64,000 bases of DNA from Acidobacteriota bacterium (GTDB taxonomy: Bacteria; Acidobacteriota; Terriglobia; Terriglobales; Acidobacteriaceae): contig JAKBHH010000001.1 of the NCBI GenBank assembly GCA_021836865.1, forward strand, positions 32,001 through 96,000, in the 5' to 3' direction. This document shows, one piece after another, positions 14,771 through 32,028 of this stretch. Below the pieces are notes generated by a model. The model was not told the origin of the DNA. It saw only the letters and a program-made list of their open reading frames with translations, and did no database searches. Both the position numbers and the translations under genes were made by a program. Numbering within the stretch: the first letter of the stretch is position 1; each line of letters begins with the position of its first letter.

Positions 14771-17700
14771 ATGAACCTCACGAAACTCGATTCGATGCGC
14801 GCCGCCAGGTGGCTCGCCACTGGCCTGCTCGGCATGGCGCTTGCGGGTCTGGCCTGCGCGCAGGGCGTCACCACAACCACCGTGCAGGGAACCGTCTATC
14901 TGGCCAACGGCCAGCCGGGCTCGGGAACCGTCCTCATCAGTTGGCCCTCCTTCACCACCGCCGGCGGCGCGCTCGTCGCAGCCGGCAACACAACCGCCAC
15001 CATCGGCGCGGATGGCTTCCTCAGTGTGAACCTCGCGCCCAATCTCGGCTCATCGCCCGCCGGACTCTTTTACACAGCCGTCTTTCAAATGAGCGACGGC
15101 TCCTACAGCACGCAATACTGGGTCGTGCCCGCCGCATCGCAGGCCGCCCTCGCCGCCGTCCAGTCGCAGATCATGCCCTCCGTGCAGGCCGTGCAGGCTG
15201 TCAACAAGGCCTATGTCGATCAGGCCATCCAGGCCGTCACCGCCAGCACGCTCGCGCCTTCCGGCGGCACCCTCACCGGCCCGCTCTACCTCAGCGGCGA
15301 CCCCACACAATCCCTTCAGGCCGCGGACAAGCACTACGTCGACGCCTCCTTCAGTCAGGCCCTGCCGCTCACCGGCGGCACGCTCACCGGCCCCGTTACC
15401 GCCACGCAAATCGGCGCAGCGATTCAGGTCGATCAGATGTCCGGCGCCGACTTCGGCGCAAAGCTGCAATCCTGCCTGGCCGGCATCAGCAGCACCTACG
15501 GCGGCACATGTGACGCGCGCAACTTCTCCGGCGCCCTCGCCATGGCCGCCAATGTCACCATCTCCACCGCCAACACCACCGTGCTTCTGCCCTGCGCCAC
15601 CATCAACACTGCGGATCAAATCCTCGTCACCGCGGGCACGCGCAATGTCTCGCTGCGCGGCTGCGCGCTGCGCGGTTCCAGCGCTGCCAGCGGCACACTC
15701 GGCGGCACCGTCTTCGCGTACTCCGGCTCAGCCGCCATGATCCAGGTTGGCGACCCCACCTACGCCGCCGACACGCAGGGCTTCCATCTCGACAACGCCG
15801 TCCTCAACACCACCGCCTCCGCCAGCGCCACCGCGCAGGGCCTCCGGGCCTACCGCACGCAGGAGCTCGACCTCGAAAGCCTCTACTTCCAGGGCAACTC
15901 CAACCAGACCGCCCTCACCCTCGACGGCACCGGGAACTACACCGGCGGCACCTTCTATGACGACGCCTTCACCGGCTTCCTCATCGCCGTCAACGCCATC
16001 GGCCACCAGGTCGCGAATCCCGCCACCACGGACTGGCTCAACGCCAGCACCTTCGTCCGCCTTCACATCGACTGCCCTACCGCAAGCGGCAATCCCATCC
16101 CAGGCGCCACCGGCATCAACCTGGCGCAGGGCGACGGCAACACCTTCACCGGTGGCGATGTCGAAGGCTGCTCCACCGCGCTGCACCTCGGCCCCAACGC
16201 GCAAAACAATACCATCGTCGGCCTGCGCAATGAGAACTCCGCAAGCCAGGTCATCGCCGACGTCGGCAGCGCCTACAACAACTGGATCACCGGCGGCACC
16301 ATGTTCTCCGGCAAACTCACTGACAACGGCACGCGCAACAGCTTCCTTGATACCTTCCATCGCAGCTTCAACGGCATCAACGGCGACTGGTACGGCTCGC
16401 AGCAGGACGCAACCGTCACCAACCACTTCCGCCTCGGCACCGGCGCCGGCAACGAGCGCGGCCTTCTGGATCGCTACCAGACCGACTCCGGCTATCGCTG
16501 GACAGCCGGCCTCAGCGACGCCGCCGCGGGCGAGCAGTTCTACCAGGTGCTCGACGAGCTGAACAACGTCTATCGCCTCTCCATCGGCCAGTACAACAAC
16601 GGCCAGTCCAGCACCAACAACCAGACCGTCCTCAACGCCGCGGGCTCCGGTGCCGTCGTCCTCAACGGCTCCAGCAACTCCGGCACCGGCGGCGTCATCT
16701 TCGGCTCCGGCGGACCCAGCGAAGCCACCGTCGCCACCATCAGCAACACCGGCAACGCCCAGTTCAACGGGACGTTGCAGGTCGCGGGCCCATCCACCTT
16801 CACCTCATCCGCCACCGTGCGCAACCAGGCCGATGCCGAGATCGACGCATTGCTATGGGCCGGCCTCACCGCAGAGCAGAAGGAGTCCTTCATCTACAAG
16901 GACCACACCGGTCTGAGCCAGTGGTACATGGTCAAGGACGCAAGTAACAACTGGGCCCTCAACTCCGCCACCGGCGGCCTTGACAGCATCAAGGCGTATC
17001 AGAGCACCAACTCCGGCGACACTTACATCAACGCCTCCAACGCAGCCGGCGTCGTGCGCGTCAACTACGAGCCCGGCGCAGGCACGGCCTTCAACGTCTA
17101 CGGCGGCGGCAGCAGCGCGCTCTACGCCAGCTTCAGCGGCACAAAGGCCATCAAGCTGCCCGGCCTTGCCGCGGCCAGCGGAACGAACTGTCTGCAGATC
17201 GACAACTCCGGCTACATCACCAACACCGGCGCGGCCTGCGGCTCCGCCAGCACCACCGGCACCGTCAATGGAGGCTCCGCCGGACAGATCGCCTTCTACA
17301 ACTCCACCGGCACCGCCATCAGCGGCATGAGCGCCGTCCCCGTCAGCGCAGGCGGAACCGGCACCACCACGCCGGCGGGAGCACTGGCAAACCTGGGTGG
17401 CCTTCCCCTTGCCGGCGGTACCCTCACCGGTCCACTCATCGCCAGCGTCAATGAGCAGTTCAACGTGATGGCCCCTCCCTACAACGCCAAAGGCGATGGC
17501 GTTACAGACGACACTGCAGCAATCAACTCCGCTATTACGGCGGCGGGCGCTGCGGGCGTTGTGGTTCTGCCGCCCGGCTACGCATTTAAGGTAAGCGCAC
17601 TCACCTTGCAGAACTACACAAAGATCAGCGCGAGCGGCGCGAAGCTGATTCCGTCCACTGCCAATCAGACGCTACTCACGATTCCAGCAGGCCCAAGCTT

Positions 17701-19228
17701 GCAGACCAACGGGAAACTCATCATCTCAGGCCTTGAAATCGACGGAAGCAGCCAGAGCGGAACAACGGGGATCGCCGCCGGTAACAACGCTCAGGTGATT
17801 CTCGACAAGGTAAACATCCATGATTGCGCGGTAGGAGCGGCACTAACCGCAACCCAGTTCGCCGACTTTTATTCCCTGCGCCTCTATAACAACGGCGTCG
17901 GAATGAAGGTTTATTCAGACCCTTCAGCCGGAGGAGGAAACAGCATCAACTTCTTTGGAGGGCAGATCGTAGGAAACACAGTCGGCGTGATCTTTGCGAC
18001 TTCAAACATGGGACAGGGGTCAAACTACTTCTATAACACTTCGTTCCTCAGCAACCAGGTTGCAGCCGTCGCAGCCTTCGGTGTCTCCGCTATGGCCGAG
18101 CAAGTGTATTTCTACGGCGCCACGCCGGAGGACAACGCTGTCTCAACAGCGCCCGCCAGCACCACGGTAGACGGTCATGTCATCCAACGCGCCGCGTTCT
18201 TCGGGAGTGCGGCCATGTTTAACTTCGAGTCAACGTTTGTAGCGGATGCGCTGGCAAACCCGTGGATGATCCTGACCAACGGTTCCATCGCCAGTCTGTA
18301 CGATCTTTCAGGATATGGCCAGCCTTATGGGGTGCTCGTTCAGGCCGACGCAACAAGCTCGGTGAAATTCAATGGATATGATGGGGCAATTGGCATCGTT
18401 GACAACATCGCCAAGTGGCCTCCCAGCCTGATACTGAGTACCGGCTGGCAGGGCTACGGCGCTGCTCTTTATGAGCCTTCAGCGATTCAGAATAACTTGA
18501 ATGGCACGCCTTCATCCCCCTACCTTTTCACTACGGGTGTTGCTTCGACGGGAACCGATAACGACCCCGTGTACGGCGTGGTCAACAATGTGACATTCGC
18601 TGCTTCCGCTGGAACGTCGGAGACGAATCGGGCGATACTTCCTGCCTTTTCCTCCGTGCCCACAGTGGCCTCCGATGTCGCCGTAAGCATTCTGGCGAAG
18701 TCCAACATCAATTGCAGCGTGCGTTACGGCAACTACCCCACCAACCCCTACGGTGTGACAGTCCCTCTTGCCGCTGGAATATGGACGCGCATGGTCTTCA
18801 CCATCGCTGATCTGGCAGCCAATACGAACGTAGACCCGATGCTCTACGCTGCCGATGCTTCCGGCTGTACCGTTGACCTGGCCAGAATGCAGATCACCGC
18901 AGGGCCGACCGGAACGCCCGCAACCCAGAGCGCAATTGCTCAAGTGATCGCAACAGGTGCCGTAGGGGGTGTCGGGTTGTCCTTGACGGGCACAACCGGA
19001 AGCATCGGCGGGTCAGCTCTGGCCGCGGGGGCCTGCACCAGCGGGACCGTAGCGGTTACGGGTGCAACGACAGGAATGTCGGTCGCGGCGTCGCCTGTTA
19101 CGTATCCCGGCGATGGCATCGCGTGGCGTGCCTATGTCTCATCGTCCGGCGTCGTCACCGTCAAGGTCTGCGCGGATGTGGCGGCAACTCCCGCGGTCAG
19201 CGCGTATAACGTGCGTGTCCTGCAGTAA
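14771..19228 (+). CDS. Exported tail-fibre-like protein with pectate-lyase-type beta-helix
   Basis: GAAGGAAG at 14758-14765 supports ATG 14771. The 1485-residue product begins with a Sec signal peptide (hydrophobic core at about 16-28, AxA-type site near ACAQG). The N-terminal half has phage tail-fibre features: VNKAYVDQAIQAV, AADKHYVDASF, and LTGGTLTGPL repeats at three places (near residues 170, 200 and 880). A beta-helix domain starts at about residue 905 with YNAKGDGVTDDTAAINSAI, the pectate-lyase-3/depolymerase signature, and a C-terminal module follows. Family knowledge suggests receptor or polysaccharide binding, perhaps with depolymerase activity. Third codon positions are almost all C in the first 2.7 kb but mixed after about 17,450, so the C-terminal half looks acquired separately. 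Confidence 0.75.
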   Translation: MNLTKLDSMRAARWLATGLLGMALAGLACAQGVTTTTVQGTVYLANGQPGSGTVLISWPSFTTAGGALVAAGNTTATIGADGFLSVNLAPNLGSSPAGLFYTAVFQMSDGSYSTQYWVVPAASQAALAAVQSQIMPSVQAVQAVNKAYVDQAIQAVTASTLAPSGGTLTGPLYLSGDPTQSLQAADKHYVDASFSQALPLTGGTLTGPVTATQIGAAIQVDQMSGADFGAKLQSCLAGISSTYGGTCDARNFSGALAMAANVTISTANTTVLLPCATINTADQILVTAGTRNVSLRGCALRGSSAASGTLGGTVFAYSGSAAMIQVGDPTYAADTQGFHLDNAVLNTTASASATAQGLRAYRTQELDLESLYFQGNSNQTALTLDGTGNYTGGTFYDDAFTGFLIAVNAIGHQVANPATTDWLNASTFVRLHIDCPTASGNPIPGATGINLAQGDGNTFTGGDVEGCSTALHLGPNAQNNTIVGLRNENSASQVIADVGSAYNNWITGGTMFSGKLTDNGTRNSFLDTFHRSFNGINGDWYGSQQDATVTNHFRLGTGAGNERGLLDRYQTDSGYRWTAGLSDAAAGEQFYQVLDELNNVYRLSIGQYNNGQSSTNNQTVLNAAGSGAVVLNGSSNSGTGGVIFGSGGPSEATVATISNTGNAQFNGTLQVAGPSTFTSSATVRNQADAEIDALLWAGLTAEQKESFIYKDHTGLSQWYMVKDASNNWALNSATGGLDSIKAYQSTNSGDTYINASNAAGVVRVNYEPGAGTAFNVYGGGSSALYASFSGTKAIKLPGLAAASGTNCLQIDNSGYITNTGAACGSASTTGTVNGGSAGQIAFYNSTGTAISGMSAVPVSAGGTGTTTPAGALANLGGLPLAGGTLTGPLIASVNEQFNVMAPPYNAKGDGVTDDTAAINSAITAAGAAGVVVLPPGYAFKVSALTLQNYTKISASGAKLIPSTANQTLLTIPAGPSLQTNGKLIISGLEIDGSSQSGTTGIAAGNNAQVILDKVNIHDCAVGAALTATQFADFYSLRLYNNGVGMKVYSDPSAGGGNSINFFGGQIVGNTVGVIFATSNMGQGSNYFYNTSFLSNQVAAVAAFGVSAMAEQVYFYGATPEDNAVSTAPASTTVDGHVIQRAAFFGSAAMFNFESTFVADALANPWMILTNGSIASLYDLSGYGQPYGVLVQADATSSVKFNGYDGAIGIVDNIAKWPPSLILSTGWQGYGAALYEPSAIQNNLNGTPSSPYLFTTGVASTGTDNDPVYGVVNNVTFAASAGTSETNRAILPAFSSVPTVASDVAVSILAKSNINCSVRYGNYPTNPYGVTVPLAAGIWTRMVFTIADLAANTNVDPMLYAADASGCTVDLARMQITAGPTGTPATQSAIAQVIATGAVGGVGLSLTGTTGSIGGSALAAGACTSGTVAVTGATTGMSVAASPVTYPGDGIAWRAYVSSSGVVTVKVCADVAATPAVSAYNVRVLQ

Positions 19229-19295: not shown

Positions 19296-20810
19296 ATGAT
19301 TTCAAATGAACAGCCGTTGCGCCGCCTGGCAATGGATCGCGAAGAGCTGATGCGTCTCGGACGCATCCTCGATCATCGCCCCGCGAGCCTGCAGGGCGAG
19401 ACCGTCGCCATGGCGCTCGCCGCGCGCCTGCTGCGCGTGCGCACTCGCGACGGCGCCTCAGCCCCGCTCCGTCCCAACCCCGCGCAGCGCGCCTTTGAGC
19501 AGCGGCGCGGCCAGCGCAACATCGTCCTCAAGGCGCGGCAGATGGGCCTTACTACATGGGCCGCCGCGCGCTTCTTCCTCAAGACCATCACCCAGCCCGG
19601 CACGCTCACCTTGGAGGTCGCGCACACCCAGGAGGCCGCCGAAGAGATCTTTCGCATCGTGCATCGCTTTCTCAGCCGCCTCCCCGCCGCGCTGCGCGAA
19701 GGACCGCTTAGAACCTCGCGCGCCAACGTGCGCCAGATTGCCTTTCCGCGCATCGACGCGCAGTATCTCGTCGTCTCCGCCGGCGACCGCAACGCCGGCC
19801 GCGGCCTCACCGTGCAGAACCTGCACTGCAGCGAGCTGGCCCGCTGGCCCGGCGACCCCGCTGAAACCCTCGCCGGCCTGCGCGCGGCGCTTGCGCCCAG
19901 CGGCGAAACCATTCTCGAGTCCACGCCCGACGGCGTCGGCGGCTGCTTTCATGAGGAATGGCTCAAGGCCGCTGAAACCGGCTTCGTGCGGCACTTCCTG
20001 CCCTGGTGGATTGAACCGCGCTATCGCGCCGCCGCCGTCGATGCTGCACCTCTTACCGAGGAAGAGCGCGACCTCTGCGCACGCCACAACCTCGACCTCG
20101 AGCAGATTGCCTTTCGCCGCCGGTTGCGCGCCGGCTTTCGCGGCCTCGCGCGCCAGGAGTATGCCGAGGACAGCGCCAGTTGCTTCCTCGCGAGCGGCGA
20201 GTCTGTCTTCGAGCTTGCGGCGATCGACGCGCGCCTCGCCACCGTCCCGCCTCCCGCCGAAACGCGCCGCAACGGCACGCTCGAAATCTGGCTGCCGCCG
20301 GTGACGGGCAAACAGTATCTGGTTGCCGTGGACCCGACCGGCGGCGGCAGCGAGGGCGACTACTCCGCCGCGCAGGTGGTTGAGTTGCACACCGGTCTGC
20401 AGTGCGCCGAGTTTGCCGGCCACGTCGGCGGCCTCGAACTGGCGCGTCTCATCACCGATCTTGCCCGCGAGTACAACCACGCCCTGCTCGTCATCGAGCG
20501 CAACAACCACGGCGCGGGCGTGCTGGCCCTGGCCGATACGGCCTGCGCCTACTCGCGCATCTATGCGCAGCGCGGCCAGCCCGGCTGGCTCACCACTACC
20601 GTCACGCGCCCCGCCGTGCTCGGCCACCTCGACGCCGCGTTGGTCGAAAACTCCGACCGCTTCATGAGCCGTCGTCTGCTGGCCGAGTGCCGCAGCTTTG
20701 TGCGCCTGCCCAACGGCGGCACCGGCGCCCGCGCCGGCACGCACGACGACCGCGTGATGGCCATGGCCATCGCCCTCGGCGCGCGGGCCGAGCTGCTGGC
20801 CAGGCCGTAA
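19296..20810 (+). CDS. Phage terminase large subunit
   Basis: ATG 19296 has AGGGAG at 19281-19286. The frame is open further upstream but overlaps the preceding gene. The 504-residue protein has an ATPase domain with a deviant Walker A (LKARQMGLTTWAA, about 78-90) and an acidic box in LHCSELARWP. It then has an RNase-H-type nuclease domain with VAVDPTGGGSEGD (Asp at about 346), a middle acidic residue in LLVIERNNHG, and DDRVMAMAIA near 485. Terminases cut concatemeric DNA and pump it through the portal into the prohead. The small subunit was not recognised. The stop codon is one base before the next ATG. Confidence 0.9.
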   Translation: MISNEQPLRRLAMDREELMRLGRILDHRPASLQGETVAMALAARLLRVRTRDGASAPLRPNPAQRAFEQRRGQRNIVLKARQMGLTTWAAARFFLKTITQPGTLTLEVAHTQEAAEEIFRIVHRFLSRLPAALREGPLRTSRANVRQIAFPRIDAQYLVVSAGDRNAGRGLTVQNLHCSELARWPGDPAETLAGLRAALAPSGETILESTPDGVGGCFHEEWLKAAETGFVRHFLPWWIEPRYRAAAVDAAPLTEEERDLCARHNLDLEQIAFRRRLRAGFRGLARQEYAEDSASCFLASGESVFELAAIDARLATVPPPAETRRNGTLEIWLPPVTGKQYLVAVDPTGGGSEGDYSAAQVVELHTGLQCAEFAGHVGGLELARLITDLAREYNHALLVIERNNHGAGVLALADTACAYSRIYAQRGQPGWLTTTVTRPAVLGHLDAALVENSDRFMSRRLLAECRSFVRLPNGGTGARAGTHDDRVMAMAIALGARAELLARP

Positions 20811-20811
20811 A

Positions 20812-21720
20812 ATGCTGGTAGACATTCAGGCAGGCGCGGGGAGACTCTTGGCGGTTCTGGCAGTGCAGCATATCCGGCGGATGCGGGGCGGTGCCCAGGG
20901 CCAGTTGATGCTCGGCGCTGACGGTCACGCCTACGTCGTCAAGTTCCAGAACAACCCGCAGCACATGCGCGTGCTGGCCAACGAGCTGCTCGCCTCGCGC
21001 CTCGCCCTCGCCGCCGGCCTCACCGCGCCGCACGCCGAGCTCATTGAAGTCTCGCCCTGGCTCATCGACAACACCCCCGAGCTGGAGGTCGATCTCGGCC
21101 GCCGCCGCGAGCGCTGCACGCCCGGCCTCCAGTTCGGCTCGCGCTTCGTCGGCGGGCTCATGCCCGGCCAGGTCGTCGACTACCTGCCCGAAGACCAGCT
21201 CGGCGAACTGCGTAACGGGTCCGAGTTCGCCGGCATCCTCGCGCTCGACAAGTGGACCGGCAACGCCAACGGCCGCCAGGCCGTCTTTGCGCGCAAGCAG
21301 CGCGAGCGCCGCTACCGCGCCGTCTTCATCGACTACGGATACTGTTTTCACGCCGGCGACTGGAAGTTCGAGGACACTCCCCTGCGCGGCGTCTATTATC
21401 GCAACGACGTTTACCGCTCCGTCACCGGCTGGGAGTCTTTCGAGCCCTGGCTCGCGCGCATGGAGACGATGCCGCCCGAGACGCTCTGGGCCGCGGCCAA
21501 CGAGGTTCCGCCCGAGTGGTACGGCGGCGACCTCGCGGAGATGGAGACGCTCATCGAAGCGCTCCTCGCCCGCCGCGGCCGCATCCGCGATCTCATCGAC
21601 GCCTTCGCCCGTTCCGATCGCCATCCCTTTCCCAATTGGGGCATGCGCCGCGCAGATTGTGCCGCCGAACCGTGGCCTTCTCCGCCGTTCGGCGCTAGCA
21701 TCGCTGGGAGGGTCCAGTAA
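20812..21720 (+). CDS. HipA-like protein kinase, inserted between terminase and portal
   Basis: A 302-residue protein whose residues 20-195 match the compact HipA/PI3-4-kinase-like fold: YVVKF with ATP-binding K44, NELLASRLA with E58, a catalytic loop DKWTGNAN (D146, N151) and metal-binding FIDYG (D174). All key positions are intact, so it is probably an active kinase. It lacks the full HipA length (about 440) and N-terminal subdomain. It begins one base after the terminase stop, so it is translationally coupled, and is followed by a DUF3037 protein, a pairing I recall from other genomes. HipA kinases phosphorylate tRNA synthetases or other proteins to stop growth; here no HipB-like repressor is visible. 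Role in defence, lysogeny or dormancy is inference. Confidence 0.75.
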   Translation: MLVDIQAGAGRLLAVLAVQHIRRMRGGAQGQLMLGADGHAYVVKFQNNPQHMRVLANELLASRLALAAGLTAPHAELIEVSPWLIDNTPELEVDLGRRRERCTPGLQFGSRFVGGLMPGQVVDYLPEDQLGELRNGSEFAGILALDKWTGNANGRQAVFARKQRERRYRAVFIDYGYCFHAGDWKFEDTPLRGVYYRNDVYRSVTGWESFEPWLARMETMPPETLWAAANEVPPEWYGGDLAEMETLIEALLARRGRIRDLIDAFARSDRHPFPNWGMRRADCAAEPWPSPPFGASIAGRVQ

Positions 21721-21797
21721 GACCAGGGAAGAGGGACTAAGGGACGGTGGACTGAGGGACCAAAGGGCGGCGAAGACCGGCCCGGAAAGGAGCGCGC

Positions 21798-22640
21798 ATG
21801 ACCGACATCGCATCGAAACACAGCCGCCGCACCTGCGCCTTTCAGCTCCTGCGCTATGTGCCCGACGCGGTACGCAATGAGTACGTCCACATCGGCGTTG
21901 TGCTGCGCGAGCAGGGCGGCGCGGGCGGCCTCGAGCTGCGCTTCACGCGCGACTGGCGCCGCGTCCGCTGCCTCGACCCCGACGCCGACACCGCGCTCCT
22001 TGAATCCATGGAGGCCGAGCTGCGCCAGCGCCTCGCCGCGGACGCCGACGGCAAGCTGCGCCGCATCCTCGAAGAGTCGCTCTCGCTCAATGTGCAGATC
22101 ACCGAGCCGAAGGCGTATCTCGCCGAGAGCCTGCAGGCCGGGGTCGAAGAGCTGATGCGCCTCTACATCGATCCTCCCGCCCGCGAACGCGCGCAGCGCC
22201 TCAGCGGCCGCGCGGCGATTCATCAACAGATGCGCGCCGGATTCGAGCGCGCCGGGGTCTGGGACTTGTTGCGCAAGAGAATCCCCGCCTCCGACTACAC
22301 CCGCCCCGGCGATCCGTTGCGCATCGACGCGGGTTACCGGCCTAACGGCATCATCCGCATGTTTCACGCCGTCTCGCTCGAGCCCGGCGTGGAGATGGCC
22401 AAGGTGCTGGCCTTCTCCGCCGCCAGCCTCCGCGCGGGCGTCGAGCGCGTCGAGAAGGCCAAGCTCGAACTCACCGCCATCATCGAACCCGTGGCAAAGC
22501 TCGCTACGGAAGACGAACCGGACCGCCTCGCCCTCTACCGCTTCGGCGTCGAGACCATGGAAGAGCACCAGATTCGCGTGCTCACCACCGCCGATATGGA
22601 GCGCGTGGCCGAGACTGCGCGCCGCGAACTCAAGGTCTGA
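21798..22640 (+). CDS. DUF3037-family protein, partner of the HipA-like kinase
   Basis: GAAAGGAG just upstream supports ATG 21798. The 280-residue soluble protein opens with CAFQLLRYVPDAVRNEYVHIGVVL, the signature I associate with DUF3037, followed by a helix-rich middle and C-terminal region. No catalytic motif can be pointed out. The gene lies 77 bases after the HipA-like kinase on the same strand and inside the phage structural cluster. It could be the substrate, an inhibitor or an adaptor of that kinase. The gene is GC-rich and matches its neighbours in codon use. Confidence 0.75.
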   Translation: MTDIASKHSRRTCAFQLLRYVPDAVRNEYVHIGVVLREQGGAGGLELRFTRDWRRVRCLDPDADTALLESMEAELRQRLAADADGKLRRILEESLSLNVQITEPKAYLAESLQAGVEELMRLYIDPPARERAQRLSGRAAIHQQMRAGFERAGVWDLLRKRIPASDYTRPGDPLRIDAGYRPNGIIRMFHAVSLEPGVEMAKVLAFSAASLRAGVERVEKAKLELTAIIEPVAKLATEDEPDRLALYRFGVETMEEHQIRVLTTADMERVAETARRELKV

Positions 22641-22820: not shown

Positions 22821-22937
22821 TTGTAGAGAGAAATCAGGTGCTGTTGAGCCTGGTTCCTCTCCTTCATCTTCGGCCGCGGCTGTCGATTCCGACTCCGCGG
22901 CCGCAACCTTTTCAAGGCAGCAAACACGAAACACACC

Positions 22938-22976
22938 AGGCATGGCACTCCGCGCGAGGCCATGCCTTTGTTGTTT
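22938..22976 (+). terminator. Attenuator-like hairpin just upstream of the portal gene
   Basis: Perfect 9-base stem AGGCATGGC (22938-22946) and GCCATGCCT (22959-22967), followed by TTGTTGTTTC. It stands between conserved element B and the portal start codon, so transcription from B must pass it. Confidence 0.6.
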
Positions 22977-22996
22977 CTCCCACAAGGAAGGTGCGC

Positions 22997-24280
22997 GTGA
23001 ACGTGCGAGAGCAGTTGCGAGAGATCTGGCGGCAGGCCACCCATCAACCCAACGGTCGCAGGACCGATATGGCGGCAGGCGCCGTGGACGCCGAGGCGGA
23101 GCGCAAAACGCTGGCGCTTCCGGCCATCCTCAGCCCGGTGCAGTTCCCCGGCAAGCTGTTGCCCAAGCCCACGCCGATGAACCTGCGCCGCTTTGCCGAG
23201 ACGCCCGTCGTGCGCCGCGCCATCAACGTCATCAAGGACCGCATCGCGGCCATGGACTGGCAGGTGCGCGTCCGCCGCGGTGTCCTGCCCGGCGCGGTCC
23301 TTGACGCGCGCGAAAAGCTTCGCGCGCTAAGACGCACCCTCGAAGAGCCAAACGCGGTGGACAGCTTCCGCACCCTCATCGAGCAGGTCATTGAAGACGC
23401 CCTCACCGGCGGCTACGGCGCCATCGAGATGGAGCCTACCGGCGACGAAGAGCGGCCCGCGATGCTCTGGCCCGTGGACGGCGCGTCCATCCGCATCAAC
23501 GCGCGCTGGGACGGCCAGCCGGAGACGCCGCGCTATGCACAGGCCATGCCCGGCCAGCTCGACGGCGTCGATCTGCGCGACGACCAGCTCATGTACATCC
23601 GCATGAATCCGCGCAGCTTCACCCCCTTCGGCCTCGGCCCGCTGGAGGTCGCCTTTGAAACGGTCAACGAGTTTCTCTCCGCGCATCGTTTCGCGGCCAA
23701 GCTCGCGGCCAACTCCGTCGCGCAATACGCGCTCTGGCTCAACGAGGCCACGCCCGCGCAGCACGACCGCCTCATCCGCTGGTGGCAGGACGAGATTGAA
23801 GGCACGGGGCGTGTGCCGCTGCTCTCGACCGAACAGAAGCCCGAGGTGCTTCGCTTTGCGCAGGGCACAGACGCCGATCTGCGGCTGGAGTGGCAGCAGT
23901 TCCTCATTCGCATGGTCGCCAACGCCTTCGGCCTGCCGCCCATGCTGCTCGGCCTGGAGGGCGACGTGAACCGCGCCACCGCAGCGGAACTGGCCGACGA
24001 GGCCTTCCGCGGCGCCATTCTCCCGCTGGCGCAGTTGCTCGCCGATCACATCACACGCGACCTGTTCGCGAAATGTATCGGCTGGCGCGAATTCGAGTTT
24101 GCCTTCAACGATCTGAATGCGAGAGACGAGGAGACCGAGCTGGCCGTGCAGGTGCAATTGCTGCAGGCGGGCGTGCTCACCGTCAACGAGGTGCGGGCCA
24201 TGCGGGGACTGGCGCCGCTGGGTCCCGGTGGAGTGGCGCAACTGGCGGGCGAGGCAGAAGCGCACCAACAGGATGAGTAA
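22997..24280 (+). CDS. Phage portal protein
   Basis: GTG 22997 is chosen because AAGGAAG at 22984-22990 gives normal spacing; GTG codons at 22991 and 23003 are alternatives. The 427-residue protein shows the HK97-type portal order: RFAETPVVRRAINVIKDRIA near the start, a beta-rich wing, LMYIRMNPRSFTPFGLGPLE, the helix EFLSAHRFAAKLAANS, and ANAFGLPPMLLGLEGDVNRATA leading to the C-terminal clip helices. Portals form the dodecameric ring through which DNA enters the head. The C-terminus ends in an acidic Glu/Gln tail. Followed by the protease-like, scaffold and capsid genes. Confidence 0.88.
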   Translation: MNVREQLREIWRQATHQPNGRRTDMAAGAVDAEAERKTLALPAILSPVQFPGKLLPKPTPMNLRRFAETPVVRRAINVIKDRIAAMDWQVRVRRGVLPGAVLDAREKLRALRRTLEEPNAVDSFRTLIEQVIEDALTGGYGAIEMEPTGDEERPAMLWPVDGASIRINARWDGQPETPRYAQAMPGQLDGVDLRDDQLMYIRMNPRSFTPFGLGPLEVAFETVNEFLSAHRFAAKLAANSVAQYALWLNEATPAQHDRLIRWWQDEIEGTGRVPLLSTEQKPEVLRFAQGTDADLRLEWQQFLIRMVANAFGLPPMLLGLEGDVNRATAAELADEAFRGAILPLAQLLADHITRDLFAKCIGWREFEFAFNDLNARDEETELAVQVQLLQAGVLTVNEVRAMRGLAPLGPGGVAQLAGEAEAHQQDE

Positions 24281-24330: not shown

Positions 24331-24852
24331 ATGCAGATGGGTGGAGAGCGCATGCGACTGGAAGCGATGGCGGTGAAGATACCGCATGTAGACGGGCATC
24401 CCAACCGGGTGTCCTTTGAGGGAGTGTTAACAGTGGTGAACGCGGCCAGCGATAAAGCCCCGGCCGGGGCCCGCGGGCATCGCGTCCTGCTTACGCGCGA
24501 GGCGGCGCATCAGGCATTGCCATCTCTGCTGGGCATGGCGGTGGACTACCGGCCGGGATGGGACGGACACGATGCAAGGCGCAAGATCGGCCTGCTGACG
24601 GAGGCCAACCTTGCCGGAAACAAGTTAGTGGTGCGCGGCTACCTGTATGCGCGCGACTTTCCTGAGGTTGCACGGGCAATCCAGGCACAGGCTCCCGAAG
24701 CGCTCGGCATGAGTTATGAGTTAGCCGATGCGCGGGTGGAAGATATGCGGGCCGAGATATGGAAGCTGACCCGCGTGACCTTTACCGGAGCGGCCATCCT
24801 GTTGCGGGATAAAGCGGCTTACCGGGCCACAAGCTTCCGTATGGCAAGCTGA
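24331..24852 (+). CDS. Prohead protease-like protein
   Basis: A 173-residue protein in the position where head-maturation proteases are found, between portal and scaffold/capsid. It has the overall pattern of U35-type proteases: FEGVLTVVNAASDKAP, a His-Asp in WDGHDARRKIGLLTEA (H80), ALGMSYEL with S128, and the closing WKLTRVTFTGAAILL strand that resembles the LxEVSLVTxPA end of the family. An active-site His/Ser pair is therefore plausible. ATG 24331 follows GGAG at 24322-24325. The assignment rests on pattern and gene order, not on a match search. Confidence 0.6.
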   Translation: MQMGGERMRLEAMAVKIPHVDGHPNRVSFEGVLTVVNAASDKAPAGARGHRVLLTREAAHQALPSLLGMAVDYRPGWDGHDARRKIGLLTEANLAGNKLVVRGYLYARDFPEVARAIQAQAPEALGMSYELADARVEDMRAEIWKLTRVTFTGAAILLRDKAAYRATSFRMAS

Positions 24853-24958: not shown

Positions 24959-25357
24959 ATGGAAGAGAAACAGATGCAAACCGAACAACGGCTGGAAGCC
25001 GCGGCCACTCTGCTGGAGCGCACGCTCAGCCTGCTGGAAGAGCGGCAAAGCGCGATCACCGGCGAGGTGGAGCGCATCTCGGCCACCGTGGAGCAGAGCC
25101 GCCGCGAGGCGGAGTTGGCCGAGAAGCTGGCCGCCGCCGAGCGCGAATTGGCCGGGGTGAAAGCCTCCGCCGCACAGAACGTGCTCAACCCGCTGCGCAA
25201 GACGGTGCCCGCGGCCACCTCGGAGATGCTCGCCAAGCACGGCATCGGCGACGCTCCGGTGGATGTGCGCACGCTCGATGCAGCCCTTGCGGGCCTCAGC
25301 CTCGAACAGCGCATCGCGGTGAAGAGCCAGTTGCTGCGCGCCGGCGCCATCGCCTGA
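24959..25357 (+). CDS. Coiled-coil protein, candidate capsid scaffold
   Basis: GAGAGAGGA at 24945-24953 supports ATG 24959. The 132 residues are predominantly charged heptad-like helix at about 5-75 (Glu/Arg/Ala/Leu rich), then a short C-terminal domain ending RAGAIA. Size, charge and position directly before the major capsid gene fit a phage scaffolding protein, which guides prohead assembly and is removed by the protease. No sequence motif proves this. Confidence 0.6.
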   Translation: MEEKQMQTEQRLEAAATLLERTLSLLEERQSAITGEVERISATVEQSRREAELAEKLAAAERELAGVKASAAQNVLNPLRKTVPAATSEMLAKHGIGDAPVDVRTLDAALAGLSLEQRIAVKSQLLRAGAIA

Positions 25358-25416: not shown

Positions 25417-26385
25417 ATGAACGCAACTTTTGCAGATATTCACGCGGCAGCCGATTTCATCGGGCCGGGCGCCATTGAAGTTCCCTTGTATCAGACGGAG
25501 ATCTTCGACATCTGCCGCCGGTCCAGCCCCTTCGGGCAGCGCATCAAGCAGGTGCCGGCCACCGGCCATCCCTCCCGCTTCTTTGAGGAGACGGCGATTC
25601 CCAATCCCGGCGCAGCCGGCTTTGTGAATCCGCGCAGCATCACCGCGCCCGTGGTGAGCCCCACGCGCGTCGAGCGCAGTGTGCCGCTCAAGGCCATCGT
25701 CTCGCAGATCAACTACAACCTCTTCGACATCGAGCTCGGCAATCAGCAGCAGCAGTTCGCTTACCTGCAGGCCAAGGACCTGGTGGACACCGTCAGCGGC
25801 GTGATGGTCACCCACGACGTGGCGCTGTGGAACGGCAACGATACCAGCCTCAGCTCGCCCACGACCACGCAGTATATGGGCGCCATCGGCCAGATTGTGG
25901 CCGGCGGAAACACCACCACCATCGGCACCACGGCGTCGATTGTGGACGGCATGAAGTCCGCGGTGGCGCAGATGGTGGCCAACAACGGCTACCAGGTGCG
26001 GCCCACCGCCATCTACGCCAACCCGGTGCTGCTTGACCTGATTGATCGCGAAATGAAGACCGACTTCAACGTCGTACTGCAGACCGACCAGATCACCGGC
26101 GGCTTTCGCGTGAAGATGCTCTCCACGCAGGCCGGCGATCTGCCGCTGATCCCCGACTGGAGCCTGAGCTACACGGGCACGCCGGGCTCGGGCACCGCGG
26201 TGCTGCCGGCCTACATCGTCACGGAAGACCTGATCGAGTACCACTGGCTGGGCGATCCCACGCCGCGCATCTTCCAGCTTGGGTTGCCCGGCTCGCTCAC
26301 CTACCAATATGTCGCAGTCAAGTTCGGCGGCGTGGTGGTCAAGGGCGCAAGCTACGCGCATTACCAGGTGCTGGTCGATCGCTAG
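25417..26385 (+). CDS. Major capsid protein (HK97-fold candidate)
   Basis: A 322-residue protein (334 if the ATG at 25381 is used; neither start has an ideal Shine-Dalgarno, GGAGGGGG lies at 25398-25405). It has the layout of HK97-type capsid proteins: an N-terminal arm, RFFEETAIPNPGAA and VERSVPLKAIVSQINYN (E-loop/P-domain strand), the spine helix QFAYLQAKDLVDTVSGVMVTHD, WNGNDTS, then YQVRPTAIYANPVLLDLIDRE and a C-terminal beta domain ending with VAVKFGG. Position between scaffold and adaptor genes and a strong terminator after it, which would allow high separate expression, support the call. Confidence 0.75.
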   Translation: MNATFADIHAAADFIGPGAIEVPLYQTEIFDICRRSSPFGQRIKQVPATGHPSRFFEETAIPNPGAAGFVNPRSITAPVVSPTRVERSVPLKAIVSQINYNLFDIELGNQQQQFAYLQAKDLVDTVSGVMVTHDVALWNGNDTSLSSPTTTQYMGAIGQIVAGGNTTTIGTTASIVDGMKSAVAQMVANNGYQVRPTAIYANPVLLDLIDREMKTDFNVVLQTDQITGGFRVKMLSTQAGDLPLIPDWSLSYTGTPGSGTAVLPAYIVTEDLIEYHWLGDPTPRIFQLGLPGSLTYQYVAVKFGGVVVKGASYAHYQVLVDR

Positions 26386-26540: not shown

Positions 26541-27164
26541 ATGGCATATCTGCAGCCAGCGGATTACCCGAATTATGGATTGCCGGCTGGAACCTCGGCG
26601 GACTGGATCACGGCCGCCACCGCATTGATCAACAGCTTCTGCAGGCGGCCGGACCTGAACGTGATCCAGTACACGGAGCGCCTGCGTGTCGTGACCGGCT
26701 CGCAGACCGTGCGCCTGAGTTATCTGCCTCTGGCGCCGCTGGGCGCGGCTACGTCGCCACTAGTCTCTCTCGAAGGTCGCTACACCAAGCCGCGCCGCGG
26801 CGAGATCCTGAGCGACCCGGTCTTTGAGATCGTGTGGGCGTTTTCTCTACCCGGTCAGTGGACCACGATTGATCCCACGCTGGTGGACTTCGATCCCAAC
26901 ACGGGGGAGCTCACGTTGCCCTGGAACATCCTCGGGCTGCCGTTCAACGAGGTTGCGGCGACCTACACCGCGGGACTGACAACCATCGGCGATAACGTGA
27001 AGTCGGCCTGCGCGCAGATTGTGCGCAATGCCCAATCGACGCCCGCGCTGAACGCGAGCCGCTCGCGCATGGACACGATGTGGATGGAGTACTTCTCAAG
27101 TTCGCTGCTCGACGAGACCGTGCAGGCGTGGCTGCGCCCGTACGTTGCGAACAGGCTGGGGTGA
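26541..27164 (+). CDS. Phage head-tail adaptor-like protein
   Basis: A 207-residue protein starting 38 bases after the capsid terminator, with GGAAGGGTGAGGT upstream. The N-terminal half is helical then beta-rich with RLRVVTGSQTVRLSYLPLAPL. The C-terminal half, with LPFNEVAATYTAGLTTIGDNVKSACAQIVRN, resembles gp6-type head-tail connectors, in which a beta strand region precedes a C-terminal helical pair. It probably attaches below the portal. Family name not certain. Confidence 0.55.
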   Translation: MAYLQPADYPNYGLPAGTSADWITAATALINSFCRRPDLNVIQYTERLRVVTGSQTVRLSYLPLAPLGAATSPLVSLEGRYTKPRRGEILSDPVFEIVWAFSLPGQWTTIDPTLVDFDPNTGELTLPWNILGLPFNEVAATYTAGLTTIGDNVKSACAQIVRNAQSTPALNASRSRMDTMWMEYFSSSLLDETVQAWLRPYVANRLG

Positions 27165-27167
27165 GCG

Positions 27168-27602
27168 ATGAGCGATACAGCGCCGCGTAATCCGGTAGGT
27201 GCGCCGCAGATGCTGGCCGATGCGCTGCTGCGCAGCGTTGCAGGAGCCTCAGCACTGCTGCGCGTGACAGGGGCGAACGCGCCCAACAGCCAGTCTGAAG
27301 TGGGACTGGTGGCGACAACTTTCTCTGACGTGGTCGTCAGTCCCGTGGTGATGCGCAGGGTGAGACCCACGTGGGAGAGCGATGGGCAGCCGCAGTGGGA
27401 GATGTTTGTCTCCGCGACATCCATTGAAGCGCAGGTCAGCGCGCTTGACTTCGGCTCGGCGCAGGCGTTGTTGGCCGCCACGCTGGCCATCACGGTGGGC
27501 GGCCAGGACTACCTCATTGAGTCGATGACGGCCAACGAAGCCTTCGGCCAGGTGTATCTCTACCGGCTGCTGGTGCGCGAGGCGCGTCCGCAGGCGGTGT
27601 GA
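27168..27602 (+). CDS. Putative head-completion / tail-joining protein
   Basis: A 144-residue protein beginning 3 bases after the previous stop, so co-translated. The N-terminal third is helical (MLADALLRSVAGASALLRV) and the rest beta-rich, ending with GGQDYLIESMTANEAFGQVYLYRLLVREARP. The last strand resembles the closing strand of phage head-closure/stopper proteins. Function is inferred from place and size only. Confidence 0.5.
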   Translation: MSDTAPRNPVGAPQMLADALLRSVAGASALLRVTGANAPNSQSEVGLVATTFSDVVVSPVVMRRVRPTWESDGQPQWEMFVSATSIEAQVSALDFGSAQALLAATLAITVGGQDYLIESMTANEAFGQVYLYRLLVREARPQAV

Positions 27603-27671: not shown

Positions 27672-28157
27672 ATGCAAAACGCGAAGGACTCTTTTTACAT
27701 GGCGCTGCGTATGCGGCTGGCGGCGATCAATCCGAATCGCACCATCCTGCTGCGCGGCGCGCTGCGGCCCGGCATCTTTGTGGAAGAGGCCGAAGCGCCG
27801 TATGCGCAACTGCCCAACGATGTCTTTGTGCTGCGCTGGCTGGCGATGGGCATCGAGGTGAATCTGCCCGCGACGATGGCAGCGCAGGAGTGCGAGGTGA
27901 TCTACCAGACCTGCGGCACAGAGGCCTTTGGCGGGCTGGATCGCGGCCGCCAGCTGAGCGAGATGGACGAAGAGCTGGTGGAGATGCTGCAGCCGTTTCA
28001 AACGCCCAAGATGAACTACGCCATGCAGCCCGCGGCAGCGATGCTGACGCAGGTCTTCTGGGACGAGCCGCAGTTCGCGCCGGTGCAGGCGCAGCGCGAC
28101 CGGATCACGCGCTCGGCAAAGATGGTGATCTACAGCTACCAGGAGCAGGGGGAATAG
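27672..28157 (+). CDS. Putative tail-completion protein
   Basis: A 161-residue protein, 69 bases downstream of the previous gene and with GGGAACAAGGAAAACGC upstream. It opens with a helix (KDSFYMALRMRLAAINPNRT) and continues with alternating strands, ending TRSAKMVIYSYQEQG. Size and position fit a tail terminator or completion protein. Its stop codon abuts the next start (TAGATG), indicating coupling. Confidence 0.45.
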   Translation: MQNAKDSFYMALRMRLAAINPNRTILLRGALRPGIFVEEAEAPYAQLPNDVFVLRWLAMGIEVNLPATMAAQECEVIYQTCGTEAFGGLDRGRQLSEMDEELVEMLQPFQTPKMNYAMQPAAAMLTQVFWDEPQFAPVQAQRDRITRSAKMVIYSYQEQGE

Positions 28158-29132
28158 ATGGCCGCGAACTGGTTTCAAGCGCCGGCGCCGGTGGCGCGCC
28201 GGGTGCGTGCGTATTTTGCGCCGGTCAATCGTGCGTCGCAGACGCCGGTGCTGTTTGACGCATCGCAGCAGGGTGCGTTCAGTTTGAGCGCTCCGCCCAC
28301 GCCGTGGATGGACTTGGGATTCATCCAGAACTTTGCGCGCAAGCCTCTGAGCAAGAGCGCGCCGGTGATGACGGGCATTCCCGCCGCGCCGCTCGACCAG
28401 GTGCGCGAGACGCTGGAGGCGCAGGTGAGCTTCGAGTTCCTGAGCTGGACGAAGCTCACGATGGCGCTGGCGACAGGCTCGCAGCACATGAACCTGCTGG
28501 CTCCCGCGACAGGCGCAACACCGGCCGCCGATGGGGCCACGGCCGCGACGGCCGTGGTAGTGCAGAGCGGGTCCACAGCGACGAACATTGTGCTCGCATC
28601 GACGGACGCGGCGAAGTTCGCAGCAGGACAGATTGTCACGGTGGATGTGGACAACACCGGGCAGACGGGCTTTGTAGGCGCGCCGGTAGCAGGCGCGTAT
28701 CTGCGACAGGCGGTGACGGATGTGGACTACATCCGGCGCGTAACCTTCAACGTGGCGCTCGTCTCCGCGGTGAGCACAACGGGGCTGACGCTGACCACAC
28801 CGCTGCCCGGCGGCGCGCCCGCAGCGAATGCGAAGCTGCAGGCTCTGACGGGATTTGTGGACCGCGAGGGCGGCAGCTTCTATCAGGAGTGGTCGGCGCT
28901 GTTTCTGCTACATGGTGGGCAGGGCGAGCGCATCTTCTTCCACTATCCGCGGCTGCAGGCGATGAACGGCGCGGAAGAACTGGGCGTGCCGATGGATGCG
29001 AAGAACAAGCTGGGTATGCAGCGCGTGCTGCTGAAGGCGCAATTCACGGCGATGCCGGTGACGGACCCGCTGGATGGCGAGCGTGTGCTGTGCTATCGGA
29101 GCTTCCTGCCCGCTGTGAATGCGGTGGTGTGA
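28158..29132 (+). CDS. Putative major tail (tube) protein, unknown family
   Basis: A 324-residue beta-rich protein without signal peptide, rich in Ala, Thr, Val and Gly. It has an internal module at about 125-180 (AATAVVVQSGSTATNIVLAS...VDVDNTGQTGF) that looks like an inserted beta domain, and a conserved-looking C-terminal part EEWSA-type strand, GERIFFHYPRLQAM. Position after the tail-completion candidate suits the tail tube. I do not recognise a named family. Codons are mostly G-ending here, in contrast to the C-ending genes at the left of the window. Confidence 0.45.
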   Translation: MAANWFQAPAPVARRVRAYFAPVNRASQTPVLFDASQQGAFSLSAPPTPWMDLGFIQNFARKPLSKSAPVMTGIPAAPLDQVRETLEAQVSFEFLSWTKLTMALATGSQHMNLLAPATGATPAADGATAATAVVVQSGSTATNIVLASTDAAKFAAGQIVTVDVDNTGQTGFVGAPVAGAYLRQAVTDVDYIRRVTFNVALVSAVSTTGLTLTTPLPGGAPAANAKLQALTGFVDREGGSFYQEWSALFLLHGGQGERIFFHYPRLQAMNGAEELGVPMDAKNKLGMQRVLLKAQFTAMPVTDPLDGERVLCYRSFLPAVNAVV

Positions 29133-29145
29133 GGAAGCGATCTAT

Positions 29146-29232
29146 CCCAGGTCTCAGAAGCGAGACCTGGGGCGCTCGGTTTGTGATTTCCACCCATTTC
29201 GCCTGCTGACGCAGACGAAATGGATGGGGCAC
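29146..29232. repeat. Family-1 repeat pair inside the phage cluster
   Basis: A short GGTCTC/GAGACC unit (CCCAGGTCTCAGAAGCGAG, 29148-29166) followed by a longer unit whose stem TTTCGCCTGC / GCAGACGAAA ends in ATGGATGGGGCACAC. Host-type repeats have settled between two tail genes. Confidence 0.85.
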
Positions 29233-29283
29233 ACCTGTAAGTCAGTGAGTCAGTACGCAAGAAAGGAAGCGGCGAGGAGCACG

Positions 29284-31596
29284 ATGAAGATTACGATCCA
29301 GGGGCAGGACTACACGGCGGCGTTGGATGCGGCGCATCCGCTGACGATTGCGCGTACGCTGAATGAGCCCACGGCGTGCAGGCTGTGGCTGAGCCTGCCC
29401 GCGGACGAGGCGCTGGCCGTGCCGGCGCGCTACCAGACTGTGGCCGTGACGGGCGATGACGGCACGAGCTACTTCACCGGTTACATTGCTGTAACTCCGC
29501 TGCCGGAGTATGCGGGCGTGAGTCTGCGCGGGCCGCGGTATCGCATCGCGATTGAAGCGATCAGCGACGAGCTGCTGCTGGATCAACTGACGGTAGCGCC
29601 GAGCAAGACGGCGGCTGGCGTGACGGCGGGCAGCGTGCTGAGCGCACTCGTGCAGCACACGGACGCGACGTCGCTCTCAACCACAGGGCTGACGCTGACG
29701 ACGCCTGTAGCGAGCTTTGAGCCGGAGCCGGGCGCGCCGTGGAGCAAGAGCGCGGGTTTGATTGCGTCGGGTGCGCGCGCTGCGTATCGCGCGATGAATG
29801 GCGCGCTGACGGTGGCGTCGGCTCAATCGACTGTGCACCCGCTGAACGAGACGGATGGCAGCCTGACGCTGGGTGCGCTCACACTAAACGGCACGGCGAA
29901 GCGCGCGCTGGCGAATGATGTGACGGTGTGCGGCGCTGCCGAGCCTCAAGCATACGTGACGGAATATTTTCTGGGCGATGGCGTGACGACGCAGTTCTTT
30001 CTCGCCGAGGACCCGTACTTTCCGCCAGCGTCGAAGGCGATTCTGATTCACGAGCTGTTCAATGAGCCGGCAATTGATGCGCGGATCTGGACGAACTCCG
30101 GCGGCGTGGGCTACCTGACGCTGGGCGCGGGCGGCCTGGCGATGCAGGGTGGAAACGGCATTGACGGCGACACGATGCTGACATGGATGGATCCGATTGA
30201 GATGGCAGGCACGCTGCTGCTGGAAGCGACAGGGGTCTCGCTGGCCGCGGGAAGCACGGGAATTCTGGCGGGCATGTTTACAGGTACGGAGACGCTGGCC
30301 GGATGCACGGCAGGGTTTCAGGCGACAGCGGCGACGGGCACGGGCACTGTAACGCTGCAGCCGGTGGTGCAGGGCGTGGCGACGGGGACAACATACACGG
30401 TGAATCCCGCGAACCAGTATGCGCTCCGCGTGCGCGTGCACTGTCCCGAGGCGGCGCGCGGCGGGCAGGTGTACTCGAGTTACGACGACAACGGCGTGGT
30501 GACCTATGGGGGCGCGTGGAACCTGGCGCCGGGCAAGCTGCTGTTTGAGCTGCAGGAGTTTGTGAACGGCGTGGGCGGGATGCCGGTGGTGTTGTATGAC
30601 GGCGCGGTGGCAAACCTGCCGGGGACGAGCGTGGTGGCGGCGGTGAGCAGCATCAATCTGCAGGGTTCGATGCGCGAGCTGAATCTGAACAACCTGGGCT
30701 CGGGGTGGGTGGTGTGTACGCCGTCGGGAGGGGCGGCGTACACGCGGCGCGTGGGCACAACGGCGCAGGCGGGCGAGTGCCACCTGTTGCGCACGGGCAA
30801 GCTGGTGTTCTACACGGGCTTTGCGCCGCCGGTGGGCGAGCAGATAGCGGTGAGTTACCGCACGGTGGGCAGAGCGGTAGGGCGCGCGGTGAATGCGGCG
30901 AGCCAGCAGGCGATGGCCGCGGCGGGTCTTCCGCCCATTGCGGCATGGATGGGGTCGGTGACGAATCCCGCGGCGCGCTGCTCGGCGGATTGCAGAAGTG
31001 CGGCGCAGGCGATGGCGCAGGCGGCGGCGAGCGTGAGTGCGCTGTGGAGCGGCACATACAAGGGCACGCGCGCGAGCTTTGCCGCGGACGTGTGGCCGGG
31101 CGATGCGCTGCTGCTGAATGCTCCGTCAACGAGCCTGAACGCGCAGGTGGTGGTGCGCACGGTGAAGGTGAGTTACAAGGCCAGCGATCCGGACCAGGTG
31201 GAATATGCGATCACCTTTGCCAATGACTGGGCCGAGGACCTGGCGATCAGGACGAATGCAACGGTGCCGCCGGCGACCTGGCTGCCGGCGCTGGTGAATC
31301 CCGTGTTTGCGGCGAACCTGAGCGGGCTGGCGATGACCGCGATGAGCGGCAGCACGGTGACGATTGCGACGGGCGCGACGCCGCCAACCGGCGGCGGCAT
31401 TGAGATTCGGCGGCGGGACTGGTGCTTCCAGCCGGGCGAGGATACGGACCTGGTGATGCGCGGGTCGCAATCGACGCTGACGTTTACGCGGGTGGCGGCG
31501 AGCGACCGGTTTTACATCAGGATGTATGACGGGGCAACGCCGCCGAATTACTCGGAGTTCTCGGCGGCGCTGTTTTTTAATTTGCCCCTGGCGTGA
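29284..31596 (+). CDS. Large phage tail / baseplate-hub-like protein
   Basis: ATG 29284 has AGGAG at 29275-29279. The 770-residue protein opens with MKITIQGQDYTAALDAAHP and LNEPTACRLWLSLP, a pattern of baseplate-hub or distal-tail proteins in which a small N-terminal beta barrel binds the tube. The middle (about 260-500) resembles a concanavalin-like carbohydrate-binding beta sandwich (DARIWTNSGG..., LLFELQEFVNG). The C-terminal part contains EVRRRD-type strands IEIRRRDWCF and FYIRMYDGATPPNYS, similar to fibronectin-III-like ends of tail hubs. It may link tail tip and receptor binding. No tape-measure protein was found before it. Confidence 0.55.
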   Translation: MKITIQGQDYTAALDAAHPLTIARTLNEPTACRLWLSLPADEALAVPARYQTVAVTGDDGTSYFTGYIAVTPLPEYAGVSLRGPRYRIAIEAISDELLLDQLTVAPSKTAAGVTAGSVLSALVQHTDATSLSTTGLTLTTPVASFEPEPGAPWSKSAGLIASGARAAYRAMNGALTVASAQSTVHPLNETDGSLTLGALTLNGTAKRALANDVTVCGAAEPQAYVTEYFLGDGVTTQFFLAEDPYFPPASKAILIHELFNEPAIDARIWTNSGGVGYLTLGAGGLAMQGGNGIDGDTMLTWMDPIEMAGTLLLEATGVSLAAGSTGILAGMFTGTETLAGCTAGFQATAATGTGTVTLQPVVQGVATGTTYTVNPANQYALRVRVHCPEAARGGQVYSSYDDNGVVTYGGAWNLAPGKLLFELQEFVNGVGGMPVVLYDGAVANLPGTSVVAAVSSINLQGSMRELNLNNLGSGWVVCTPSGGAAYTRRVGTTAQAGECHLLRTGKLVFYTGFAPPVGEQIAVSYRTVGRAVGRAVNAASQQAMAAAGLPPIAAWMGSVTNPAARCSADCRSAAQAMAQAAASVSALWSGTYKGTRASFAADVWPGDALLLNAPSTSLNAQVVVRTVKVSYKASDPDQVEYAITFANDWAEDLAIRTNATVPPATWLPALVNPVFAANLSGLAMTAMSGSTVTIATGATPPTGGGIEIRRRDWCFQPGEDTDLVMRGSQSTLTFTRVAASDRFYIRMYDGATPPNYSEFSAALFFNLPLA

Positions 31597-31800: not shown

Positions 31801-32028
31801 ATGCGGATGATGAATGAATTTGAGGCGCAGGTGCTGAGCGACTTGTGCGTGCTGAAGACGCAGATGAATGGACTGATGGGCGACGGGAACGGCGGGCGCC
31901 TTGCCGAACTGGAGCGGCGCATGGAGCGGCACGAGCAGGACTGGCAGCGCGCGAAGGGCGTGCTGGCGGCAGCGAGTGTGGTGTTTGCGGTGATCGAAGT
32001 GGCGGTGGAGACGTGGCTGCGGCGGTGA
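31801..32028 (+). CDS. Small coiled-coil plus one transmembrane helix (XhlA-like candidate)
   Basis: A 75-residue protein. Residues 5-50 form an amphipathic coiled coil (FEAQVLSDLCVLKTQMNGL, then LAELERRMERHEQDW) and residues 52-70 one membrane segment (VLAAASVVFAVIEVAVETW) followed by Arg. This order is that of XhlA-type phage lysis/holin-associated proteins. It is the only lysis-like gene seen; no endolysin is nearby. It could also be a generic small membrane protein. Confidence 0.6.
   Translation: MRMMNEFEAQVLSDLCVLKTQMNGLMGDGNGGRLAELERRMERHEQDWQRAKGVLAAASVVFAVIEVAVETWLRR

Follow-up and report, generated by a model that had tools for sequence, protein, structure and literature searches.

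A HipA-like kinase/DUF3037 gene pair within a probably domesticated capsid gene cluster of the Acidobacteriaceae

Introduction

Why do a HipA-like kinase gene and a gene for a DUF3037 protein lie, both intact, amid phage packaging genes, namely between those for the terminase large subunit (TerL) and the portal protein, in a member of the Acidobacteriaceae? The question is raised by a stretch of 64,000 nucleotides (contig JAKBHH010000001.1 of assembly GCA_021836865.1, positions 32,001 to 96,000; the whole stretch is called the window below) and concerns the Acidobacteria, bacteria that dominate many soils. An earlier note on the window had correctly described this arrangement and had read the pair as prophage cargo that could represent an undescribed toxin-regulator, anti-phage or packaging-control system.

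Results

The kinase and its DUF3037 partner

The kinase is encoded by an intact ORF of 302 aa (20812-21720). TerL, with a stop codon that extends to 20810, precedes it, and the portal ORF (22838-24280) comes after it and its partner, all on the plus strand. The kinase was identified by Pfam, PADLOC, catalytic residues and an AF2 model. HipA_2 (PF20613) scores 35.2 bits (cut-off 27), with residues 21-118 as the best stretch, and PADLOC PDC-M66A matches at 3.2e-8 over a best stretch of only about 110 residues; the PDC-M66 matches are weak (31-33 bits) and partial in coverage, with no curated cut-off shown. The active site is complete, as the earlier note had stated: all 71 aligned kinases share K44, D146, N151 and D174, and the position of E58 holds E in 70 of them and D in one. 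By the usual kinase motifs, these residues include the catalytic Lys, Asp and Asn and the Mg-binding Asp. The AF2 model predicts a HipA/CtkA-type fold, and the kinase family profile gave zero sequence matches to solved structure chains at E 0.1.

That the kinase starts a single base past the terminase stop is true of the ORF (20812 versus 20810) and probably not of the gene. Since the conserved N-terminus of the family (consensus MAVLAVQ) aligns with the TTG at codon 13 (20848), which has GGGGAGA ahead of it, and since the kinase has 289-290 aa in many close relatives, translation probably begins at 20848. The gap between TerL and the kinase has a median of 158 bp in 39 genomes of relatives.

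The partner (21798-22640, plus strand, 280 aa) was assigned by Pfam DUF3037 (60.5 bits, cut-off 22.6), PADLOC PDC-M66B (1.5e-8, partial coverage), a structure model and conserved columns. For residues 136-280 the model suggests a PD-(D/E)XK-like domain. Nucleases of this type carry the signature D ... (D/E)-x-K; in the DUF3037 C-terminus D172 and D177 are invariant (67 of 67), yet the strand that follows reads FHAVSL and the D/E-x-K motif is absent. Compared with solved structures, the DUF3037 profile gave one match, at E 0.84. A C-terminal DUF1829 identity was rejected, as Pfam finds no such match in this part of the protein.

Published relatives of the pair

The pair itself is already known, and what is new is its chromosomal and capsid-cluster setting. 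The word 'undescribed' was dropped because PDC-M66 in PADLOC and papers on Sda1 and HipAD/DS-6 cover the module type. According to the part of the text available from PMC12548924, DUF3037 is strongly tied to HipA-like proteins, and the Sda1 operon loses its defence against Bas51 when the kinase is missing and becomes toxic when DUF3037 is missing. PDC-M66/Retron-Sda1 likewise combines a HipA-like kinase gene with a DUF3037 gene, and its PADLOC models match both window proteins. However, the Sda1 pair adjoins a retron, whereas the pair described here keeps one locus, be it inside or without a capsid cluster; in the same excerpt the C-terminus of the Sda1 DUF3037 protein is similar to a DNA-binding protein of a type III-A1 retron, whereas that of the window is modelled as PD-(D/E)XK-like.

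The accessible part of PMC13092281 describes DS-6, there renamed HipAD, as a HipA-family kinase with DUF3037 and without HipB, and reports that mutation of a kinase residue abolishes defence. DS-6B additionally contains DUF1829, which Pfam does not match in the window protein, and an anti-phage role of the window pair would follow by analogy. HipBA, HipT and CtkA share fold and catalytic residues with the window kinase. In HipBA a HipB-type HTH antitoxin is adjacent, whereas the genes adjoining the window kinase are TerL and DUF3037, and no HipB was found beside it in the window. The conserved pairing without a neighbouring HipB stood up to scrutiny, and by analogy with these systems a toxin-regulator function is plausible.

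The capsid gene cluster of the window

All genes of the cluster lie on the plus strand. Its left end is a tail-spike/fibre-like protein with a pectate-lyase-like domain (14771..19228; PF12708 at 3e-7, above cut-off, and End_N_terminal at 6e-5, below the Pfam cut-off), homologues of which occupy the equivalent position in relatives. TerL (19296..20810; phrog_2 at 1.1e-24) is collinear in relatives as well. Behind the kinase pair follow the portal ORF (PF04860 at 7e-57, phrog_2662), in which the conserved part begins roughly 150-230 bases in, a 173-aa conserved head-region protein (24331..24852) without a Pfam match and a 132-aa conserved protein (24959..25357), the latter two with collinear homologues. 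The putative major capsid protein (25417..26385) was named by position, size and conservation only; it has zero Pfam or PHROG matches and is 70-94% identical across the fetched host-family genomes in tblastn. Next come a head-tail adaptor (26541..27164; phrog_442 at 2.6e-12), three more genes (27168-27602, 27672-28157 and 28158-29132) and a large protein of about 770-825 aa (29119..31596) without a family match, all but the adaptor assigned to the cluster by collinear homologues. The right end is a 73-aa protein (31807..32028) with homologues equally placed in many fetched relatives. For several of these later genes the Pfam and PHROG family models give zero matches.

The neighbours of the cluster are an aquaporin-family (MIP) gene (13098-13826) and an AIM24 gene (32099-32866). 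Because these genes, and not the usual host genes, flank it, the cluster seems to have moved in the window species; none of the host flank genes common in relatives is present on the 96-kb contig of this genome, and a repressor homologue sits on a different contig.

Occurrence in the host family

The look for co-occurrence proposed in the earlier note turned out positive. Of 150 host-family genomes, 109 have a match for the kinase, 103 for DUF3037, 91 for the portal protein and 85 for TerL (146 for rho, searched as a control), the kinase being present in 91 of the 110 good assemblies, and the pair also occurs in other families of the class. The adjacency of TerL and kinase is not due to chance, because the kinase follows directly, at most 1.2 kb downstream and on the same strand, in 78 of the 85 genomes with TerL; in the remaining ones it lies elsewhere (three) or has no match (four). 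A further 28 genomes carry the kinase without TerL. At the level of loci from named genomes, for which the best 80 of 287 matches were used and 27 were too short to judge, 41 of the 53 judgeable loci have TerL before and the portal gene after the pair, three have TerL only, three the portal gene only and six neither.

Regions were fetched from 46 host-family genomes, including that of the window, which were picked mostly for good assembly. In the 39 with TerL, a capsid cluster of about 17 kb is collinear, with TerL, kinase, DUF3037, portal and then the later genes in constant order, and the spike gene usually precedes TerL. Three genomes of genus g34 have part of the block shifted upstream, and here too TerL and portal enclose the pair. 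Six of the 46 regions hold the pair without adjoining capsid genes, and in G143 TerL is on another contig. Some copies of the cluster contain a few stop codons inside matches.

Several genomes depart from this order. In G032 the cluster is present and the TerL-portal gap (1,452 bp) is filled by unrelated ORFs instead of the kinase pair, and in G141 a TerL fragment is joined to late genes and no kinase match was obtained. As the pair is gone from G141 and missing from the cluster of G032, neither the pair nor the cluster is essential. In G008, TerL, portal and pair are spread over three contigs. Two genomes of genus g54 (G054 and G108; loci L295, L296 and L297) have the kinase and an adjoining DSP phosphatase gene apart from a lone DUF3037 gene near purK-purE. 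G134 of genus g50 combines a CI-like repressor, a DSP phosphatase, the kinase and DUF3037 within 7 kb (L298), with no capsid genes, and has nine kinase matches in its genome.

A shared chromosomal place

On the right-hand side, 34 of the 46 fetched genomes, from 24 genera, have purE-purK and/or odhB in the same orientation, 31 of them with capsid genes and three without (G128, G148 and G050). The other 12, among them the genome of the window, lack these common right-hand genes, and some of their regions end early. The flanking host genes are, as we take them to be from reading their protein sequences, gfo/idh, purE, purK, odhB, pdhA, pdhB, lipB and lpdA. At G128, G148, L083 and G058 a capsid-free pair lies between the Gfo/Idh-like gene and purE, thus with common genes on both sides, and at G050 a capsid-free pair has the common host genes on its right. 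L045 contains the left capsid half alone, and purE directly follows DUF3037. As the pair holds the same chromosomal place even without the shell genes, the latter are likely a tamed phage.

Near the left end of the 46 regions, a CI-like repressor homologue (HTH_26; S24 in one copy) occurs in 22, a protein with weak similarity to sigma-70 region 4 in 30 and a DSP phosphatase in 14, and an endolysin gene lies on the right side in four. Varied insertion sites, as expected of a mobile temperate prophage, were not what we found, given the common right-hand host genes of the 34 genomes. Among the integrase (PF00589) matches listed for 30 genomes, none lies, by eye, within 50 kb of the cluster.

Inheritance within the class

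In a sample of 121 genomes of the class that are at least 90% complete (11 families, labelled with f numbers below), the kinase is found in 95 genomes, 86 of which have a single match, and in eight of the 11 families; the genomes listed for f3, f8 and f9 yielded no match. TerL is found in 26, of which 24 belong to the host family and two to f6. In 20 kinase-bearing genomes from outside the host family, which we chose ourselves and for which the regions were fetched, DUF3037 follows the kinase in 11 (f2, f4, f6 and f11), and our own profile detects none beside it in seven f5 genomes, one f7 genome and one f4 genome (G201). All eight f5 genomes searched keep the kinase; Pfam matches DUF3037 in none of seven and off-contig in the eighth (G153). 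The kinase directly follows one common gene in 12 of the 20 (f4, f5, f6 and f11), and the G208 copy of this gene has SLT and LysM domains and is of the lytic-transglycosylase type.

In five genomes (two of f4 and three of f6) the pair is followed by odhB, pdhB, pdhA, lipB and lpdA, and genomes of these two families hold it capsid-free between common host genes on either side. In G248 (f6) those left- and right-hand genes enclose the repressor, TerL, the pair, the portal gene and the rest of the cluster. By comparison of G248 with the capsid-free f6 loci, both flanks of the pair are hence known filled and empty within one family. Elsewhere, a CI-like repressor homologue is directly divergent from the pair in G217 (f11; L286), where TerL and portal have no match in the region, and a DSP phosphatase homologue lies about 1 kb upstream of the kinase, on the other strand, in G163 (f7; L285), where DUF3037 has no match.

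In the kinase tree, from which three long-branch rows were left out (G201, G163 and G197), f1, f4, f5 and f6 form one clade each; when these rows are included, the G201 kinase of f4 is placed among f1. Module distances correlate moderately with those of rho (r 0.51-0.62, permutation p 0.0005). The label 'with capsid genes', which was also given to G235 with its inverted TerL 8 kb off, needs seven changes on the tree; this would fit one gain and several losses, and from these comparisons the kinase appears to be older or more durable than the capsid genes.

These data bear on the idea that the pair is abortive-infection cargo of the PDC-M66/HipAD type, borne by a prophage and shielding the lysogen from phage. 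The matches of both PADLOC models, the position amid phage genes and, in the published excerpts, the dependence of defence by Sda1 and DS-6 on the kinase speak for it, whereas the locus is common to many genomes, the kinase tree follows the families, the kinase is widely present in single copy in the class and most of the searched f5 genomes lack DUF3037. Wide vertical inheritance is unusual for defence cargo, and we regard this explanation as possible, if somewhat unlikely. Neither protein matched any of 50,697 phage records, which likewise counts against phage cargo. The expression 'prophage cargo' used in the earlier note is misleading, as in most of the fetched genomes the pair sits at one chromosomal locus that also occurs capsid-free and the kinase tree follows families.

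No other result speaks as strongly against an obligate toxin-antitoxin pair as the f5 kinases that persist in the absence of DUF3037, unless another partner exists. One could imagine that the kinase is instead a house-keeping regulator of the class, perhaps linked to the turnover of the cell wall, rather than a toxin or a protein for defence. Its wide single-copy presence, its position behind a lytic-transglycosylase-type gene in 12 of the 20 genomes and the searched f5 genomes, most of which lack DUF3037, would agree with this. However, 26 of the 121 genomes gave no kinase match and relatives of the kinase behave as toxins, so that we consider a purely house-keeping role rather doubtful.

A probably fixed element resembling gene transfer agents

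Within genera (seven pairs), dN/dS is about 0.02-0.25 for the kinase, DUF3037, TerL, the portal gene and the putative capsid gene, some values being upper bounds only, since dS is saturated; for pair-only copies of genus g31 it is 0.04-0.05. Because the cluster is collinear, because 34 of 46 genomes have common right-hand host genes and because five genes are under purifying selection, it fits better as a fixed inherited element than as a moving prophage. An ordinary defective prophage in slow decay, in which the pair survives by chance, could account for the partial clusters and the stop codons in some copies, yet it is very unlikely in view of the low dN/dS of five genes, the presence of TerL in 85 of 150 genomes and the strong conservation of the putative capsid gene.

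Gene transfer agents (GTAs), such as RcGTA and others, are small inherited capsid clusters without an integrase and under purifying selection. The cluster is like them in being a small inherited set of capsid genes under purifying selection. Like them it has a shared locus and vertical inheritance, with exceptions that include the window genome, G032 and G008, and its structural genes are constrained in the seven within-genus pairs. Unlike GTAs, many copies adjoin a CI-like repressor and a kinase module lies inside. We know of no gene transfer agent in Acidobacteria. Among the literature matches listed for gene transfer agents and Acidobacteria, as far as their text was available, no acidobacterial GTA is reported; matches for HipA and gene transfer agents contained, by title, nothing on such a kinase-bearing cluster, and a search for domesticated prophages, Acidobacteria and kinase found nothing.

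The cluster has been recorded as viral before. In the accessible text of Eichorst et al. (2018; PMC5900883), acidobacterial 'prophage cluster 153' is listed and most of the prophages are predicted to be active; the interval given for Terracidiphilus gabretensis (LAIJ01000009, 700-740 kb) covers our locus L050 (712-729 kb). Cluster 153 is taken as prophages there, and neither the kinase pair nor the shared locus appears in that text. In IMG/VR, 15 loci on 'viral' contigs (L002-L016) all have TerL, kinase, DUF3037 and portal in order. Because these contigs are only 6-22 kb long and all show the four-gene order, they may be pieces of chromosome.

In 78 of 85 genomes the kinase follows TerL immediately, and the repressor, the protein with weak similarity to sigma-70 region 4 and the DSP phosphatase adjoin the cluster in 22, 30 and 14 of the 46 regions, respectively. 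This raises the further possibility that the kinase, with the CI-like repressor and in some genera the phosphatase, times the production of tamed-phage particles or DNA packaging. We hold this to be unlikely, as the pair is constrained in capsid-free lineages and G032 has a cluster without the pair. The packaging-control role considered in the earlier note is weakened on the same grounds, since the pair is kept and constrained where packaging genes are lacking and, in G032, the packaging genes persist without it.

Discussion

From our point of view, the locus is best explained by a resident kinase/DUF3037 growth-brake module that keeps one locus across several families of the class and is bracketed here by a domesticated, GTA-like capsid cluster, a reading to which we assign a probability of roughly 0.6. 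Its first half is likely by analogy, as it draws on what is published about relatives and on the invariance of the active site, and its second half is likely from the shared place, the inheritance and the selection found by comparing genomes.

According to this explanation, the HipA_2 kinase/DUF3037 module would stay at one chromosomal locus in several families, the window genome being an exception, and in the host family a conserved capsid cluster, presumably a GTA-like former phage under purifying selection, would bracket it. A single old cluster, the capsid halves of which were lost repeatedly, would fit the tree. By analogy with Sda1 and DS-6/HipAD, the kinase would phosphorylate a host protein and thereby stop growth, and DUF3037 would restrain the kinase, perhaps via a catalytically degenerate nuclease-fold domain that touches DNA. 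The kinase might then be freed from DUF3037 when a phage infects the cell or when the cluster is induced.

One could further speculate that in most Acidobacteriaceae the cluster is a working GTA built around an ancestral kinase/DUF3037 switch, including in some genera the DSP phosphatase and the CI-like repressor, which chooses and arrests the particle-making cells and which became a free-standing growth control wherever the particles were lost. Taken as a whole, this extension is a tentative one that we would not yet expect to hold.

If the family-fixed capsid cluster is confirmed, it would represent a DNA-exchange route for these bacteria, and it would also account for 'prophages', and perhaps for viral contigs, that in truth belong to the chromosome. 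Lastly, since the kinase is inherited across eight of the 11 sampled families, both with and without its supposed antitoxin, it becomes testable whether such a kinase originated as a toxin or as an ordinary regulator.
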